Positions 1-14,719 of a DNA stretch of 64,000 bases are shown here, one piece after another. Source of the stretch: Cyanobacteria bacterium SIG26 (GTDB lineage Bacteria > Cyanobacteriota > Vampirovibrionia > Gastranaerophilales > Gastranaerophilaceae). The DNA lies in NCBI GenBank assembly GCA_015152555.1, contig SUTS01000003.1, forward strand, positions 62,001 to 126,000. The letters are read 5' to 3'. Under the pieces are notes generated by a model that was not told the DNA's origin, searched no databases, and saw only the letters and a list, made by a program, of their open reading frames with translations. Positions within the stretch are counted from its first letter, which is position 1. Every line of letters starts with the position of its first letter. The position numbers and the translations under genes were made by a program.

Positions 1-1888
1 ATTTGCCTTCTTTTGCCATATTATCAATCACTTCTAATTGCTTATAAAAATGTTTCCGAACTCCAAGTACCCGTTTATACCAATGATGAACACTTGATTT
101 CGATTTAGAAATCGAATTACACGGCTTACATAAACCTATAAAATTATTAAAGTCATTATCAAAACCTTCAACTTGCGGGTCTAAAAGACTCACTGTTGCA
201 ATACTTGGTTTAATTATGTTATATACAATCGTATAGAATTTATCTTTATCTGAAGTTGCATTTCTATCATCTGTTTTAGATAAGAAAGACATATATGATA
301 ATAATTTAATTCTAGTAACAACCCCACGTAAAAGAGATGGGGTTTCATCATTCATAAGATCAGATAAACAAGCTTCATTTAACTTATAAAATTCAAAATC
401 ATCAAATTTACCCTTGTCAACGTAATCCCAAATTCTTGAATTCACTTCATCAATCATCTCTGTAAATTTAGGATTTCCTGCATCTTCAAAATAATCTCTA
501 ATAACAACTAAATTATCCATAATTTCATAAAAATTCTTAGTATAATACGGTATCATTCGATATCTTAGAGTTTCAGCAAACTCATCATCGTCGATATTAG
601 GATTTTCCTCAACTATGTTGAAAAACTCATCTGCCAAATCACGTGAGACATCACCAATATACTTCTCATATTTTTTCAAAACATTCGAATAATCAATTAA
701 AGAATTGCATTTAGACAAATCTTGTTCAAATTTCACTTTAACGGAATGAGGCATCAATATTGTTTCACAAGACGCACAAGGAATATCTACGTCTTCTTGC
801 ATTAAAGGTTCAAACTCTCTATGATGTGAAGCTACATTCATCAAACTGGATAATCGATTTACAAAATAATCATCAAATTTAACGGTATCAAAAGAAGCTT
901 TATTTGAAGCAAATAAGAAATAAGGTATATATGAAAAATTCTTCTGAATATCACCTTTACCCATTAGAAATGCAATATCAGATATATAAAGTTTCAAATT
1001 CTCTTTTAAATTAGATTGTAAAGCGGGTTGTGTGGTTAAAAATGAGGTTTTACTTGCCCGAGAATTACATTTTTTACAAATTAAAACTTGATTATTATAC
1101 TTATCTTTATTTTTATCTAACTTTGATAACTGAGAAAAATCCTGTAAAGAACAAGAAAATATACGATTCGCTAATTCTTTAGAGATTTCAGTATCAGACA
1201 TCTGTTTATGCATAAAATTTGCTCTAAATATACTGGAATAGTGACTGGTTGCAGAAATTAACTCATTGTAAGAACCATGCAATTCTTGATTTTGTTCTCT
1301 GCTTAAATTTAATTTTGGCATTACATCAGCTATTTTCGTTTTAAAGACAGTTTTTGAATCTTTATTAGTAATAGATCGTACAGCATTTAATAACTCTTGT
1401 TTTAATGCTTCATCCTCAATAGTCTCGGCAAAGTCAAAAAACTTTTGCTTTGCAAATATAATTGACTGTTCATGACGTCTAAATGACTGACGACGAGCAT
1501 TTTGGAAAAACACATGCATATTATCATGTTCTGTATCTACAGAAAGAATTGAACGCATATTATTCGGTATAAAGTCAGAATAACGATTAAGTAACTTTAG
1601 AAAATCATCACCATTATCTATTTCTGCTGCGTCCTTTAATATGTTTGAAAATTCTTCTTCGGAAAGCATTTTTGTTCCGCAACAAGGACAGTGAATTCCA
1701 TTAATATTTTTATAATCAGCTAAATTAAAAGACGCTAATCCTTGAGTTTCAAAATTATCATCATTACATTGAAAAGAAATTTCAACAACATCTGACTTTA
1801 AGGGTTTTAAGTTATAACTCAATTGTGTTATCGGTGCCGAAGCATTAGGCTTTTGTAAAAAATTATATTTGTATGGAGTAATTATCAT
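1..1888 (-). CDS. HNH-like zinc-knuckle protein, paralogue of the 3809-5779 gene, 3' end beyond window
   Basis: I translated this gene directly: it opens at ATG 1888 with MIITPYKYNF and stays open to the window edge (about 629 codons), so the last few residues are missing. It aligns along its whole length with the protein at 3809-5779: an ISFQ tag near residue 38, a CPCC knuckle followed by K-M-L, helical stretches, a first N...CKKCN knuckle, a second half restarting at CASC followed by I-L-M-P-H, and a final N-F-I-G-L-CKPCN knuckle. The HNH D-H pair of the paralogue is replaced by leucine-rich sequence here, so this copy is probably not a nuclease. It lies 45 bp after the mTERF-like gene in the same direction, probably co-transcribed. 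Function unknown. Homology to the neighbour is certain; the HNH label is inference. Confidence 0.8.
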   Translation of the reverse strand, partial: MIITPYKYNFLQKPNASAPITQLSYNLKPLKSDVVEISFQCNDDNFETQGLASFNLADYKNINGIHCPCCGTKMLSEEEFSNILKDAAEIDNGDDFLKLLNRYSDFIPNNMRSILSVDTEHDNMHVFFQNARRQSFRRHEQSIIFAKQKFFDFAETIEDEALKQELLNAVRSITNKDSKTVFKTKIADVMPKLNLSREQNQELHGSYNELISATSHYSSIFRANFMHKQMSDTEISKELANRIFSCSLQDFSQLSKLDKNKDKYNNQVLICKKCNSRASKTSFLTTQPALQSNLKENLKLYISDIAFLMGKGDIQKNFSYIPYFLFASNKASFDTVKFDDYFVNRLSSLMNVASHHREFEPLMQEDVDIPCASCETILMPHSVKVKFEQDLSKCNSLIDYSNVLKKYEKYIGDVSRDLADEFFNIVEENPNIDDDEFAETLRYRMIPYYTKNFYEIMDNLVVIRDYFEDAGNPKFTEMIDEVNSRIWDYVDKGKFDDFEFYKLNEACLSDLMNDETPSLLRGVVTRIKLLSYMSFLSKTDDRNATSDKDKFYTIVYNIIKPSIATVSLLDPQVEGFDNDFNNFIGLCKPCNSISKSKSSVHHWYKRVLGVRKHFYKQLEVIDNMAKEGK

Positions 1889-1933: not shown

Positions 1934-3808
1934 TTAACTATTAATAATTTGTAACAAAAATCTTTGCTTACCAAAATTATTTTGAGAATATATTTTCACA
2001 AATTCAACAAAATCCTCAGCGACTTTATTATCATTTGGAATAGAAAATGTATAAATTTTATCCTCAGGTTGTTCATTTATATAATCAACAAAATTTGTCG
2101 CATTTAACAACTTAGGTTTGTCCTGTTGTCGAACAAGATACATCAAAATATTTTGATATAAAACCTCATCCTTCGATGTCCTAATAGAAATCTCCCCATC
2201 TTCCTGATTTCTAACTTTTTTATAAAAATCTGCAATAGCAACTTTTTTAGATATAGATGAAGGATCTCTAACAAAAAATGCCGGATTTTTCATTCCCATC
2301 TGCATAAATTTATCCTTTGTCACATTATAAGCACTCGGAGCTTCATCAAGATTTCGTTTAAGTGTCTCTAGCTTTTTAACCAAAATTACAGGTTGAGATT
2401 TTGCAAGATTAATTGCCTGTTCAAAATCAATACTAAAAAGCTTTGAAATTTCTTGAGCTTTTTTCAATATAGTATTTGGAGAATAAACCAAAAGTGCGGG
2501 TACACTAACACACATTTTTCGATATTCATCTACACTTACCCCTAACAATTCCGCCCCTTTATCAAGCTTATTTTTTAAATTTTCAGATTTCAAATATAAT
2601 AACTCAGGAATTTGTTTACACATACCAACAAAAATCTTTTTTGTAACACCTAAAGCCTCAGATGTATCATTTATACTTTTATTAAAAAAGTCTTCATTGA
2701 AAGCAAGAATTGCTATATCTTTTCTTGCCATAGTTTTAAATTGTTCAGTTGTAATATCTAAAACCTTTGGAACATTTTTGATACGAGCCTTATATGTGTC
2801 TATATTTTCCGTAAGCATTACAGGAATACGAGAAAACAATGTTGAGACTCGAGCATGTGGTAGATTTAAAAGTTCAGAAAAATCATCGACTTTCTTTTTT
2901 ATAGTTTCAGGCGGATAAGCCAACAATTCAAAACGACGAATTAACATATCAGCATATTTTTCAGGAGGTAAATTTATCAACTTCGAAGTACTATCAATTT
3001 TAATAAAAATTTCATCAATATCTTTAGTCGCAAATTTTGCAAACGGTAATAACGATTCGATAATTTCATTTTCTGTTTGGTTTAATTTATAACGATTTTT
3101 TAATCCTGTTGCAAGATTAAAAAACTCTTGCGGTAATACATCATTTGCGCGTTGAATCTTTGCAATCCCTGATAAGACATATTGTCTTACAGTTGCTTCG
3201 GCAAAAGATAATAATGATGCAATTTTATTATATGATAACCCATCTGAACGCATTTCTAAAACTTTACGTTCATTTTGAGTCAAACTTACATCATTTAAAA
3301 CAGTATTTAATTTTTGTTTATCTACATCTCGTTCTTCATCACTGGGAGATGATACATAAGTATAAGCTTGAGATTCCGGAATAATTTCCTCATAAGAATA
3401 ATGAATATCAAAATTATTCACAAATTGAGCAGGAGCTTGAAAATCTCGAGATTTATGGACTCGTGCTTCTGTTTTTTCCGGACGAACTGAATTTAAAACA
3501 ACTAACAAGGCATCTGTATTTAATTCCCCTAGAGATTTTAAACTATCACAAGCTTCCAATAAAGAAAGATGTAACTTTTGAACATAGTCGGGTCTAAAAG
3601 AAGCAAAACGAGGGATTATATGATGCTTAGATTCTTTTTTAAAATAAGGATTGTATAAATCACACAATTGAGATTTTAAATCATTTATAGAGCAGTCAGA
3701 AGAAGCCGTATTTAACTCATCTAACAAAACATTAGATCTTTCTCTGGATTTTTTATCAAGTTCAATAGCCCTAAAAGATATCGCAGAAAACATAGCAGGA
3801 ATTTTCAT
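1934..3808 (-). CDS. HTH protein with seven 36-residue mTERF-like helical repeats
   Basis: This 624-residue protein begins MKIPAMFSAISFRA, which contains the SF-type tag found in other proteins here. Residues about 175-222 form a LuxR/sigma region 4-like helix-turn-helix (LTQNERKVLEMRSDGLSYNK, then AEATVRQYVLSGI). Residues 277-528 are seven contiguous repeats of exactly 36 residues, starting at 277, 313, 349, 385, 421, 457 and 493. The consensus is roughly LLGVsxexfxkM-x4-PxlL, then e-x-lkkk. This pattern resembles mitochondrial transcription termination factor (mTERF) repeats, which bind nucleic acid as a helical solenoid. The ATG follows the stop codon of the upstream HNH gene directly, so translation is probably coupled. 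A nucleic-acid-binding role is inference. Another alpha-solenoid repeat (PPR- or octotricopeptide-like) is the main alternative. Confidence 0.85.
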   Translation of the reverse strand: MKIPAMFSAISFRAIELDKKSRERSNVLLDELNTASSDCSINDLKSQLCDLYNPYFKKESKHHIIPRFASFRPDYVQKLHLSLLEACDSLKSLGELNTDALLVVLNSVRPEKTEARVHKSRDFQAPAQFVNNFDIHYSYEEIIPESQAYTYVSSPSDEERDVDKQKLNTVLNDVSLTQNERKVLEMRSDGLSYNKIASLLSFAEATVRQYVLSGIAKIQRANDVLPQEFFNLATGLKNRYKLNQTENEIIESLLPFAKFATKDIDEIFIKIDSTSKLINLPPEKYADMLIRRFELLAYPPETIKKKVDDFSELLNLPHARVSTLFSRIPVMLTENIDTYKARIKNVPKVLDITTEQFKTMARKDIAILAFNEDFFNKSINDTSEALGVTKKIFVGMCKQIPELLYLKSENLKNKLDKGAELLGVSVDEYRKMCVSVPALLVYSPNTILKKAQEISKLFSIDFEQAINLAKSQPVILVKKLETLKRNLDEAPSAYNVTKDKFMQMGMKNPAFFVRDPSSISKKVAIADFYKKVRNQEDGEISIRTSKDEVLYQNILMYLVRQQDKPKLLNATNFVDYINEQPEDKIYTFSIPNDNKVAEDFVEFVKIYSQNNFGKQRFLLQIINS

Positions 3809-5779
3809 TTATACACTATCTCCTTCTTCAAACAAATAACGCATATCAAAACGACCATACGTAGATTTATAAACTTTATCAGCTATAGTTTTTGCCCAAT
3901 CTTCATAACCGAAAATAATCCCGTCTTTTGACATTTTATCAACAATAAGTAAATGCTTATCAAAATTTTTTCTAACATTTATATTTTGACTAAACCAAGA
4001 ATTTATACTTTTTCTACCCTTTAAATTATTACAAGCTTTGCATAAACCTACCATGTTATATTTATCACTACTACCGCCAAGCGCCAGAGCATCCAAATGA
4101 TCACCTGTACCAACAGAAGCTTTAAACAAATTAAAAATAGTTGTATGTAATAAATTTTTATCAGTTCTGCCTGACAACAAATTTGGCTGAGTAATATTAT
4201 ATTTATATGCGATTTTCTTTAAATCTTCTAAAAAAATATAAGTCGATTTAGTACAATCATTATCCAAATCAATCCCATCTAAACATGCAATAACCAGATT
4301 TTTATAATTATAATCATTAAATTTACCGTCATAAATATAATTATAAACTCGTTTATATATAAGATCCATTGTTTCCAATTGCTTTAATGAGCCATTTTTA
4401 ACTAAATAACTACGACCTTTTTTATATTTATGAAGTATGTCGTACACCTCTTGATTTAATTTTGCTTCTAACCGGTGCAAAACTTTTTTATAAAACTGAG
4501 AAATTTCAATATCGGGGTTTTTCAAAAAAACACCATACATTATGTCTACAAGTTCGTTTGAATATTCTCCAACATATTTTTTATACTTTGCAACAACATC
4601 CATATAATCCTTTGTAGACCTACAATAAAGTAATGCTGTATCAATTTCTTTTTTTACATCATGAGGAAGCATTGTACTTGAACATCCTGCGCAAGGTACA
4701 TCAACTTTTGTCTGTATAGTAGGTTCAAAATCTTCATGACGAGAGGCTATACGAACAATTCTTAAAATATCTCTTATATCCGCTTCAGTAAAAGAAATCT
4801 TTTCCTTTGAAAACTTTGTTATAATATTACAAATATTTGTTAAATAAGCTTTACTAAATGGTAATACATCCTTTCCCATTAAATAAGCTAAATCAGTTAA
4901 GTAAGTTCGCAAATTTGAATCAAATTCAATATTATCAATCGAATTATAGGTTAAAAATATATTTTTAACAGAATTTTCATCACAACGTTTACAAACTAAA
5001 ACTTCATTATTAACCCAATCCTCAGGTAAAATTTGCGAAATTTTTGTATGTTTTTGACAAGAAAAAGCAAACACTCGTTTTACTAATTCTTGAGATAATT
5101 CCGCAACACTCATATCATCCACATTATTTATCCGAAAAACATTATAATAATCACAGCTATTACGTACATAAGCAAATGCACTTTTAGTCGCAGCAAACAG
5201 TTTCTTATCATCCAAACTTTTGAAACCTTTGATAATCGGATATAAACGCTGTCTGTAATAATAGCTCTTTTCTGTAGGTGAGACTTGACTTATGGCCTCT
5301 TGTAATTGGGCTTTTTCTTCCGGTAACAACTCTTCCGCCATATTTAGTAAATAAGAATTAGCAATACTCACATGATTTCGATGTCTATAATTTGCGTACT
5401 TAGCATTATCTATAAAAAACTCTTTAAAATCTTTATTTGCAAAAGCTTCCGGTTTATCAATTCCACGCAAAATACTTCTCATATTTTTGGGAACATAATC
5501 TTTATACTCCCTTAATAATTCAATAAATTCTTGCGTCGTATTTATTTTCCCTGCTCGTTCTACCAACGAATCATAAGATGCTTGAGTTAACATTTTTGCC
5601 CCACAATTAGGACAATGTATACCATCAATCTCTCTCGCAGGTAATAAATACGACATATCACCTTTAAAAGATATTTGTACACTATCTTGAGGCAAGTCAC
5701 ATTTTAATGGTTTTTGTTGTAATGAACTTACCGATAGAGGATTTATAAATAAATTATAATTTATAGGGAGAATTCTCAT
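3809..5779 (-). CDS. Duplicated zinc-knuckle protein with C-terminal HNH-like motif
   Basis: I start this at ATG 5779 (MRILPINYN, 656 residues), not the longer frame from 5803, because the paralogue starts at the matching point and a TATAAT lies exactly 6 nt before this ATG. An ISFKG tag is at residues 36-40. The protein has two similar halves. CPNC (56-59), followed by a K-M-L and a helical region, ends in a CKRC knuckle (263-266). CAGC (363-366), followed by T-M-L-P-H, ends in DH (560-561), GG, N and CKAC-N (580-584). The last block reads as an HNH/treble-clef motif (D-H...G-G...N...C-x2-C-N). The first half retains H, N and CxxC in similar spacing. No signal peptide is seen. Nuclease activity is plausible but unproven. 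Confidence 0.82.
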   Translation of the reverse strand: MRILPINYNLFINPLSVSSLQQKPLKCDLPQDSVQISFKGDMSYLLPAREIDGIHCPNCGAKMLTQASYDSLVERAGKINTTQEFIELLREYKDYVPKNMRSILRGIDKPEAFANKDFKEFFIDNAKYANYRHRNHVSIANSYLLNMAEELLPEEKAQLQEAISQVSPTEKSYYYRQRLYPIIKGFKSLDDKKLFAATKSAFAYVRNSCDYYNVFRINNVDDMSVAELSQELVKRVFAFSCQKHTKISQILPEDWVNNEVLVCKRCDENSVKNIFLTYNSIDNIEFDSNLRTYLTDLAYLMGKDVLPFSKAYLTNICNIITKFSKEKISFTEADIRDILRIVRIASRHEDFEPTIQTKVDVPCAGCSSTMLPHDVKKEIDTALLYCRSTKDYMDVVAKYKKYVGEYSNELVDIMYGVFLKNPDIEISQFYKKVLHRLEAKLNQEVYDILHKYKKGRSYLVKNGSLKQLETMDLIYKRVYNYIYDGKFNDYNYKNLVIACLDGIDLDNDCTKSTYIFLEDLKKIAYKYNITQPNLLSGRTDKNLLHTTIFNLFKASVGTGDHLDALALGGSSDKYNMVGLCKACNNLKGRKSINSWFSQNINVRKNFDKHLLIVDKMSKDGIIFGYEDWAKTIADKVYKSTYGRFDMRYLFEEGDSV

Positions 5780-13547: not shown

Positions 13548-13627
13548 TTTGAAGTAATCTTTAAAATATAAGTAAATTTTTTTGATTTATTCGACTTACA
13601 ATAAGAGTGTAGTAGAAGGTGAATTTC

Positions 13628-14719
13628 ATGAATATACAATTTTTGACCCCAAGTTTATTATTCAATCGTAACAATATACAGAAAAATAATTCTGTTCAAA
13701 AGGATAGTTTTGTAAAATCTAATAATACAACTTATCCTAATCTTGCTCCGTTAGCAAAAGATACTGTATCTTTTACTGCAAGTCCGATGCAAAAAATCTT
13801 ATTAATGCGAAATGACAGGGTTGCTTATGGTGTATTACAAGATATTGTTGCTGAAGCTCAAAAAGATGTTGATAAGTTTGTTCGAACTTTAAAGGCCGGT
13901 TTGAAAGGACTTGTAGAATCTCCTGCGCATCCAGATAATCCTATTGTCGCAGGTACTGCAGGGATTAAAGGGAGAGCTAAAAGTGCTCGTTCTTTAGGTG
14001 ATAAAATCCCAGAGGATATGATTACAAAAGGAGAAATTGACAATGTGGGTGATTTAAGAGGTACCCGTATTGTTATGAGAGCTGGTACTCAACAGGATTA
14101 TGACAAGTTGTTTAAAGAATTAGGTAAAATGGTTACCAGAGGTGAGTTTAAACCTGTAAGTGTTGAAAATTATCGTCTAACAAGTAAAGATAGTTATGTT
14201 TCTCAATCAACATTAAATAAATTTGAAACCGTTTGCCAAAAAATGGGTATCTATCCTGAAATAATTTCAAAACCAAAGGAAAGTGGCTATACTGCTGTGC
14301 ATTTAAATGCATTATTGCCTAATGGTAAGCCTGTTGAAATACAAATTATGGGTCGTGATATGGAATTGAGTAAAGATATTCAGGATCAATATTACAAATG
14401 GATGTTCTGTCATAAAGATTTGGACCCTAAATATAGAAAAATTCAAAAAGTTTTTGAAGAAGAAATTCCAAAACTTGACGATTTTCAATTAGAAACATTA
14501 AAAAGATATATGGTCGACTCATTTGACCATGCCAGAAAAGTTCCTCCAAAGCAATCTAAACGTAATATGAATATGGCTAAGGACTTTTTAGATTTTCCAT
14601 ATTCACTGCCACAGAGATTAAGTTACAGAAGTATCTATGAAATGATGCAAGAGTGCGACAAAGCGGAAAAACTTGCTAAAGCTCAAAAAGCAGCAAAAAA
14701 CACATCTAATAAAGGTTAA
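13628..14719 (+). CDS. RelA/SpoT synthetase-domain protein with SFTA-tagged N-terminus
   Basis: From ATG 13628 (AGAAGGTG eight nt upstream; a GTG at 13619 is less likely) the product is 363 residues. An Asn-rich N-terminal stretch ends in VSFTAS (47-52). Residues about 60-245 read as a (p)ppGpp synthetase fold: IKGRAKSARSLGDK (113-126), VGDLRGTRIVM (140-150), GYTAVHLN (220-227) and VEIQIMG (236-242), corresponding to the RxKS, DixGiRi, GYxxxH and EIQIR motifs. There is no HD hydrolase, TGS or ACT domain, so it is a small stand-alone synthetase or a relative used as a toxin or effector. The C-terminus is basic and Lys/Ala-rich. No antitoxin-like neighbour is seen. Confidence 0.8.
   Translation: MNIQFLTPSLLFNRNNIQKNNSVQKDSFVKSNNTTYPNLAPLAKDTVSFTASPMQKILLMRNDRVAYGVLQDIVAEAQKDVDKFVRTLKAGLKGLVESPAHPDNPIVAGTAGIKGRAKSARSLGDKIPEDMITKGEIDNVGDLRGTRIVMRAGTQQDYDKLFKELGKMVTRGEFKPVSVENYRLTSKDSYVSQSTLNKFETVCQKMGIYPEIISKPKESGYTAVHLNALLPNGKPVEIQIMGRDMELSKDIQDQYYKWMFCHKDLDPKYRKIQKVFEEEIPKLDDFQLETLKRYMVDSFDHARKVPPKQSKRNMNMAKDFLDFPYSLPQRLSYRSIYEMMQECDKAEKLAKAQKAAKNTSNKG

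Follow-up and report, generated by a model that had tools for sequence, protein, structure and literature searches.

The Locus and Its Gene Content

The gene described here comes from a gut bacterium of the order Gastranaerophilales. It lies on the minus strand of the window, by which we mean the whole stretch of 64,000 nucleotides that was analyzed, and encodes, from an ATG start, a protein of 624 aa in which a sigma-like half is followed by an mTERF-type solenoid and a C-terminal alpha/beta domain (table 1). Its ATG directly abuts the stop codon of the upstream gene, which encodes an HNH-type, CxxC-containing protein, and a Shine-Dalgarno-like AAGGAG is found approximately 11 nt ahead of the start, within the 3' end of that preceding gene; the two genes probably form an operon. 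The downstream neighbor is a paralogue of the upstream HNH-type protein, the two flanking proteins being 31% identical over 672 aligned positions (E 2.6e-108). The upstream protein also displays a weak IscB-like HNH match. The family to which both flanking proteins belong is patchy across the genus and includes relatives in genomes where searches for mTERF genes came up empty; moreover, across 39 further stretches, which between them take in most of the remaining mTERF loci, no mTERF gene had an HNH relative as its neighbor. On both counts, the association between HNH and mTERF genes is probably local. The contig is bacterial, 157 kb in length, and carries secY, a ribosomal protein gene, and other bacterial genes. 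Eukaryotic contamination of the assembly was ruled out, given that bacterial genes occur throughout the contig and that relatives of the protein recur in numerous independent genomes within one bacterial family.

Table 1. Location of the mTERF-Repeat Gene, Its Predicted Parts and Its Neighbors in the Window
Feature (residues)	Position	Strand	Basis
Upstream neighbor: HNH-nuclease-like, CxxC-containing protein	3809..5779	-	Pfam HNH 24.6 bits, cut-off 21.4
mTERF-repeat gene, whole (1-624)	1934..3808	-	ORF list with translations
N-terminal motif ISFRA (10-14), lineage-typical [VI][ST]F.[GAS] signature	3767..3781	-	Conserved in position across most of the family
Putative sigma region 2-like helical domain (18-112)	3473..3757	-	AF2 helices 19-34, 38-63, 66-92
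Sigma region 4/LuxR-type HTH (157-224)	3137..3340	-	GerE, VIA, profile A6
Leading helices capping the solenoid (227-276)	2981..3130	-	AF2 helices 227-240, 246-261, 264-277; inside VIA alignment to MTERF1 (230..558)
mTERF-like repeat 1 (277-312)	2873..2980	-	Self-similarity, AF2
mTERF-like repeat 2 (313-348)	2765..2872	-	Self-similarity, AF2
mTERF-like repeat 3 (349-384)	2657..2764	-	Self-similarity, AF2
mTERF-like repeat 4 (385-420)	2549..2656	-	Self-similarity, AF2; Pfam mTERF best stretch 367-451
mTERF-like repeat 5 (421-456)	2441..2548	-	Pfam mTERF, self-similarity, AF2
mTERF-like repeat 6 (457-492)	2333..2440	-	Self-similarity, AF2
mTERF-like repeat 7 (493-528)	2225..2332	-	Self-similarity, AF2
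C-terminal alpha/beta domain (529-624), ending in F.IP...FI.F...S....GK.IF	1937..2224	-	Conserved across relatives
Downstream neighbor: HNH-type paralogue of the upstream neighbor, cut off by the window edge, 45 nt away from the mTERF-repeat gene	1..1888	-	

An mTERF-Type Repeat Array in a Bacterial Protein

The first-pass annotation had described seven exact 36-residue repeats in this protein and likened them to the mTERF motif. The array is indeed exact and gapless, spanning residues 277-528 with the seven starting points given in table 1, and the self-similarity of the region is maximal at lags of 36 and 72 residues (BLOSUM62 0.69 and 0.85 per residue, respectively), the lag-36 value being attained in 0 of 2000 shuffles at any lag from 20 to 59. 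In the AlphaFold (AF2) model of the window protein, built with eight sequences, each repeat folds into three helices of approximately 15, 10, and 4-5 residues, a conserved proline starting the third, and pLDDT in the repeats is mostly above 90. This proline is conserved across the family, in which the repeat length is 36 or 39 residues. Compared with the near-perfect repeat consensus of the relatives, the repeats of the window copy are degenerate. Most relatives are basic, with a pI above 8.5, and the repeats of the window copy are weakly basic (charge +8 over residues 230-528), the basic positions 30 and 34 of the relatives' repeats not being kept. Since position 34, occupied by K or R in approximately 70% of the relatives' 36-mers, is so poorly kept in the window copy, we make no strong claim for a common positively charged ridge.

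Sequence and predicted fold both point to mTERF. The best Pfam match of the window protein is PF02536 (mTERF; 46 bits, E 4.4e-12, curated cut-off 23.1), a model that also scores above its cut-off in 9 of the 10 relatives scanned, reaching 77.5 bits at the highest. When a profile of ten relatives was compared with all PDB sequences, human MTERF1 chains came first (E 3.3e-4), with MTERF3 further down. In Foldseek, the window model retrieved mTERF proteins from the PDB at all of ranks 1-17; in VIA, they occupied ranks 1-11, MTERF3 being first (Z 14.0 over 250 residues, rmsd 6.1) and MTERF1 reaching Z 13.8. Because a VIA Z near 14 can arise by chance with helical models, the comparison was repeated with a second protein, L105, a homologue with repeats nearer the consensus than those of the window copy. 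All of its top 20 matches were mTERF proteins (MTERF1 Z 16.8 over 310 residues, rmsd 5.8), and its TM-score against MTERF3 was 0.67. The case from fold thus draws on the exclusivity of the mTERF ranking, the higher Z of L105, and the sequence evidence, taken together. Among the matched structures are MTERF4-NSUN4 on the mitoribosome as well as mitoribosomal proteins of Tetrahymena, Chlamydomonas, and Polytomella. Sequence identity is low, at 10-17% in pairwise comparison with eukaryotic mTERF proteins.

The designation of the repeats as mTERF-like is therefore borne out by the Pfam score and by the first place of mTERF proteins in the PDB, by fold and by profile. In the Pfam and Foldseek comparisons that had been proposed as a check, the mTERF signal was the best and no unrelated helical repeat ranked ahead of it, and the predicted solenoid, putatively left-handed, superposes as a model on MTERF structures. 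The Pfam score, the PDB profile, and the fold ranking rule out a chance or generic helical repeat; Pfam matches inflated by the repeats themselves, such as HP0268 and RuvA_C, had no passing stretch and were disregarded. On sequence and model grounds, we consider it supported that the repeat half is a member of the mTERF family and that the whole protein represents a previously undescribed bacterial branch of it, joined to a sigma-like half. The mTERF proteins bind nucleic acids in mitochondria and chloroplasts and, as a family, have been described as missing from bacteria (PMC6686911). A bacterial mTERF gene with an HTH had been called unusual beforehand; the eukaryotic nuclear or organellar setting is not found here. 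Yet that setting reflects the occurrence of the family as reported to date, and is not a sequence criterion; a gene outside organelles can still be filed as mTERF.

A Sigma-Like N-Terminal Half

The HTH of the protein, placed at approximately residues 173-223, is recognized by Pfam GerE (27.0 bits, cut-off 23.5, residues 175-223). Its earlier description as LuxR/sigma-4-like was right as to the HTH but incomplete, for the whole N-terminal half is sigma-70/ECF-like. The resemblance to the LuxR family is confined to the HTH, with no receiver or autoinducer domain found by the Pfam scan. In structure comparison, sigma factors align over residues 16-224. Region 4 matches that of sigF (8jzt) in VIA with Z 8.8 and an rmsd of 1.6 over 56 residues, sigma-4 structures giving Z 8.4-8.8, and the region 2 domain of L105 alone matches sigma-2 of CnrH (Z 8.1, 82 residues, rmsd 2.5) and SigW (Z 7.7). 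A profile of 18 N-termini of the family (A6) finds RpoD/SigA, with a best E of 1.8e-7 and an alignment that starts at the linker preceding region 4; region 2 of SigB was found separately (E 0.013). The match of the N-terminal half to the window's own RpoD similarly reaches past the HTH. The NCBIfam model sigma70-ECF (TIGR02937) covers residues 74-220 with 34.2 bits (E 1.8e-8), below its cut-off of 42.9, and region-2 Pfam models gave no score in the window protein or the relatives scanned. In sigma factors, regions 2.3-2.4 serve the recognition and melting of the -10 element; in our reading of the family alignment they are not recognizable. Given this and the score of TIGR02937 below its cut-off, polymerase contact may have been lost. 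As judged from sequence and model, the N-terminal half is divergent sigma-70/ECF-like and not a proven sigma factor.

Ahead of this half, the ISFRA motif belongs to a signature, approximately M[KR][IV]...[VIN][STN]F.[GAS] within the first 20 residues, that many unrelated proteins in these genomes carry (loci L065-L103), CheR-like and RelA/SpoT-like proteins included. Its density, family members counted in, is 2.99 per 1000 positions at residues 0-9 and 0.18 beyond residue 120, a difference of approximately 16 times, and a control version with Y in place of F was not enriched. The signature may be a sorting or processing signal. In the window itself, a short, stand-alone RelA/SpoT-domain protein (13619-14719; PF04607, 38 bits) has a similar N-terminal motif, VSFTAS. 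Elsewhere (L107:1463-5926), a 1487-aa HD-domain protein (PF01966) opens with an N-terminal module of approximately 110 residues that is nearly the same as that of the neighboring mTERF protein family. The occurrence of the module suggests that it has been shuffled among different C-terminal parts. At the other end of the protein, the C-terminal domain is small and uncharacterized, and is modeled by AF2 as two helices followed by a beta-alpha-beta unit.

Distribution and Evolution of the Family

More than 40 full or partial relatives were collected, with a patchy distribution over about 12-19 of the 41 sampled genera of one bacterial family; those that are named belong to Candidatus Gastranaerophilales/Melainabacteria. 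The window protein is 23-27% identical to relatives in other genomes over nearly its full length, and it is recovered by the family profile with E 5.8e-265, the window protein itself being one of the five profile sequences. In a whole-genome search of the same bacterial family, profile A2 found relatives in 90 of 383 genomes, a figure that includes weak hits, through the HTH alone, to sigma-like or regulatory proteins of the ordinary kind; by our count, clear members are present in approximately 60 genomes. In a sample drawn across the phylum (386 genomes, 142 genera), a family profile devoid of the sigma half (A8) matched 32 genomes; within the order, it matched 32 of 192. Among the matches listed, all fall in one family and 12 genera. 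Relatives elsewhere in the phylum were not found in this sample, and PF02536 had no match in 14 control genomes outside the phylum. Eight loci from profile A3 were reached through N-terminal patterns and have no bearing on distribution. A phage or plasmid origin was rejected after searches of phages, plasmids, and IMG/VR (the latter with two short peptide patterns only) gave nothing, as was membership of a known defense family, PADLOC giving no match beyond the HTH. A frame of 23,026 aa in genome G184 is an artifact of an N run, that stretch containing 9,999 N.

The architecture is variable. The sigma-like half, the repeats, and the C-terminal domain occur together in the window protein and in L003, L009, and L010; another HTH precedes the repeats in L028; and the repeats stand without an HTH in L006, L015, and L030. 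Since several relatives, L012 as well as these last three among them, are devoid of the sigma half, the solenoid apparently works without it in some genes. Tandem clusters of two to four paralogues are seen at L072, L073, and L079. In the first (L072:8080-15248), four tandem genes have a common N-terminus (F.AI.L...E) and only some of them recognizable mTERF repeats; the others may have diverged or carry other repeats. In close pairs of relatives, dN/dS ranges from 0.07 to 0.28, a rough estimate with synonymous distances near saturation in some pairs, and indicates purifying selection in those pairs; the window copy has no close orthologue, and the estimate covers relatives only. Repeat number changes by whole units: L085 and L089, although 87% identical over aligned positions, differ by whole 39-residue units, and L074 and L075 by whole 36-residue units. 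As repeat copy numbers are subject to collapse by short-read assembly, this change could reflect real modular evolution or assembly repeat collapse.

Functional Interpretation

The first-pass annotation had proposed a transcription or translation regulator. Of the two, regulation of transcription is the best-supported function, and a role in translation or on RNA its main rival. We suggest that the protein is a chromosomal transcription regulator with its sigma-like half on RNA polymerase and its mTERF solenoid on DNA, a reading to which we give an even chance. By analogy with human MTERF1, the solenoid would wrap along double-stranded DNA at a site picked by the combination of repeats, the sigma-2/sigma-4-like half would contact RNA polymerase, and the bound protein might recruit, hold or pause, or block the polymerase at that site, the sign of such regulation being conjectural. 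Besides the mTERF and sigma-type matches, the basic pI of most relatives and the purifying selection in their close pairs favor this reading; the weakly basic repeats of the window copy, the unrecognizable regions 2.3-2.4, and the relatives devoid of a sigma half speak against it. Nucleic-acid binding, a preference for DNA over RNA, polymerase contact, and cell location are features that we infer from such analogies. A more elaborate proposal is that of a protein-guided transcription factor, in which the promoter recognition of a sigma-derived module would have been replaced by a modular and evolvable mTERF solenoid, with repeat number and repeat-specific residues directing RNA polymerase; we regard it as rather unlikely. 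Sigma factors guided by nuclease-dead Cas12f exist, and the proposed factor would be their protein analogue.

The main rival places the solenoid on RNA or the ribosome, like MTERF3, MTERF4, and the mitoribosomal mTERFs, in a post-transcriptional or translational factor whose sigma half would be vestigial or would serve as a general module for docking on nucleic acids. The mitoribosomal structures among the model matches, the first place of MTERF3 in the VIA comparison of the window model, and the lack of the sigma half in some relatives are consistent with such a role; most relatives, however, keep the sigma half or another HTH, which points to transcription, and the best match of L105 is DNA-bound MTERF1. 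We therefore consider an RNA or ribosomal function possible but unlikely. Convergence, by which a lineage-specific, protein-binding helical repeat would merely resemble mTERF, is highly improbable: occurrence in one bacterial family only, in the genomes sampled, and the low pairwise identity to eukaryotic mTERF proteins would agree with it, but the curated Pfam score is far above the cut-off, MTERF1 is first by PDB sequence profile, and mTERF proteins are exclusively first by fold.

Other readings take the protein out of the cell or into an accessory island. An exported or surface-delivered effector, carried by the ISF.A-type N-terminal signature and acting on a host, protist, or competitor cell, seems improbable. 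Enrichment of the signature at the N-termini of many unrelated proteins, the patchy distribution and quickly changing repeat number, and the contig on which an HD-domain protein carries this N-terminal module would all suit an effector; nevertheless, secretion genes are not seen beside the gene, the motif is without any known export function and is borne by CheR-like and RelA/SpoT-like proteins too, and a sigma-like half makes little sense outside the bacterium. Neither export nor the earlier suggestion that the protein is aimed at a host organelle has direct support. It is distinctly improbable, in turn, that a DNA-binding protein of a defense or accessory island partners the flanking HNH proteins, for instance to guide a nuclease or hold it in check. 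Tight packing of the gene between the HNH paralogues would suit such a partnership, and the HNH cut-off is passed; but HNH relatives occur in genomes of the genus where no mTERF was found, none is a neighbor in the other 39 stretches, and the only matches from PADLOC were weak and to the HTH.

Comparison with Known Systems

Human MTERF1 has eight motifs of three short helices each, with conserved prolines capping the central helix, and is a superhelical DNA-binding factor that tracks the major groove (PMC4705650). Like MTERF1 and MTERF3, the window protein displays tandem three-helix motifs, a conserved proline, a P-x-L-L core, and a predicted superhelical solenoid. Unlike them, it is encoded by a bacterial chromosomal gene, has no organelle, and combines the repeats with a sigma-like N-terminal half and an extra C-terminal alpha/beta domain; the bacterial repeats, moreover, are exactly 36 (or 39) residues long and, in the relatives, far more regular. 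In plants, mTERFs constitute a multi-member family in organellar gene expression, some acting on bacterial-type RNA polymerase (PMC6085346; PMC7909791), and one plastid mTERF works by binding DNA, its effect falling on a transcript from the bacterial-type gene system of the plastid (PMC6085346). In contrast with the bacterial protein, chloroplast and mitochondrial mTERFs of plants are nuclear-encoded and organelle-targeted. We know of no plant mTERF with a sigma half in the same chain. ECF and sigma-70 factors have a region 4 domain, as the window protein does, together with a linker and a region 2 domain of which it has a putative counterpart; the window protein differs in scoring below the sigma70-ECF cut-off, in its unrecognizable regions 2.3-2.4, and in the solenoid that follows.

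Among the papers searched, none mentions mTERF together with Gastranaerophilales, though automatic database tags on some proteins may exist. With a bacterial branch, the origin of the mTERF family becomes open to test: genes may have passed from a eukaryote to bacteria or in the opposite direction. Among bacterial proteins, TAL effectors and BurrH of Burkholderia also have helical repeats in variable number, and their structural similarity to the L105 model is weak (Z 7.0 for TALE, 6.6 for BurrH). The structure matches of L105 also include a PDB entry titled "RNA-guided transcription complex". TAL effectors and BurrH differ from the mTERF-type family in repeat sequence and length and have no mTERF motif, their repeats being 33-34 residues long with a base-specifying pair. 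The arrays of the mTERF-type family are simple and regular, and might allow a recognition code to be deciphered and perhaps put to use in engineering, as with TAL effectors and PPR proteins.
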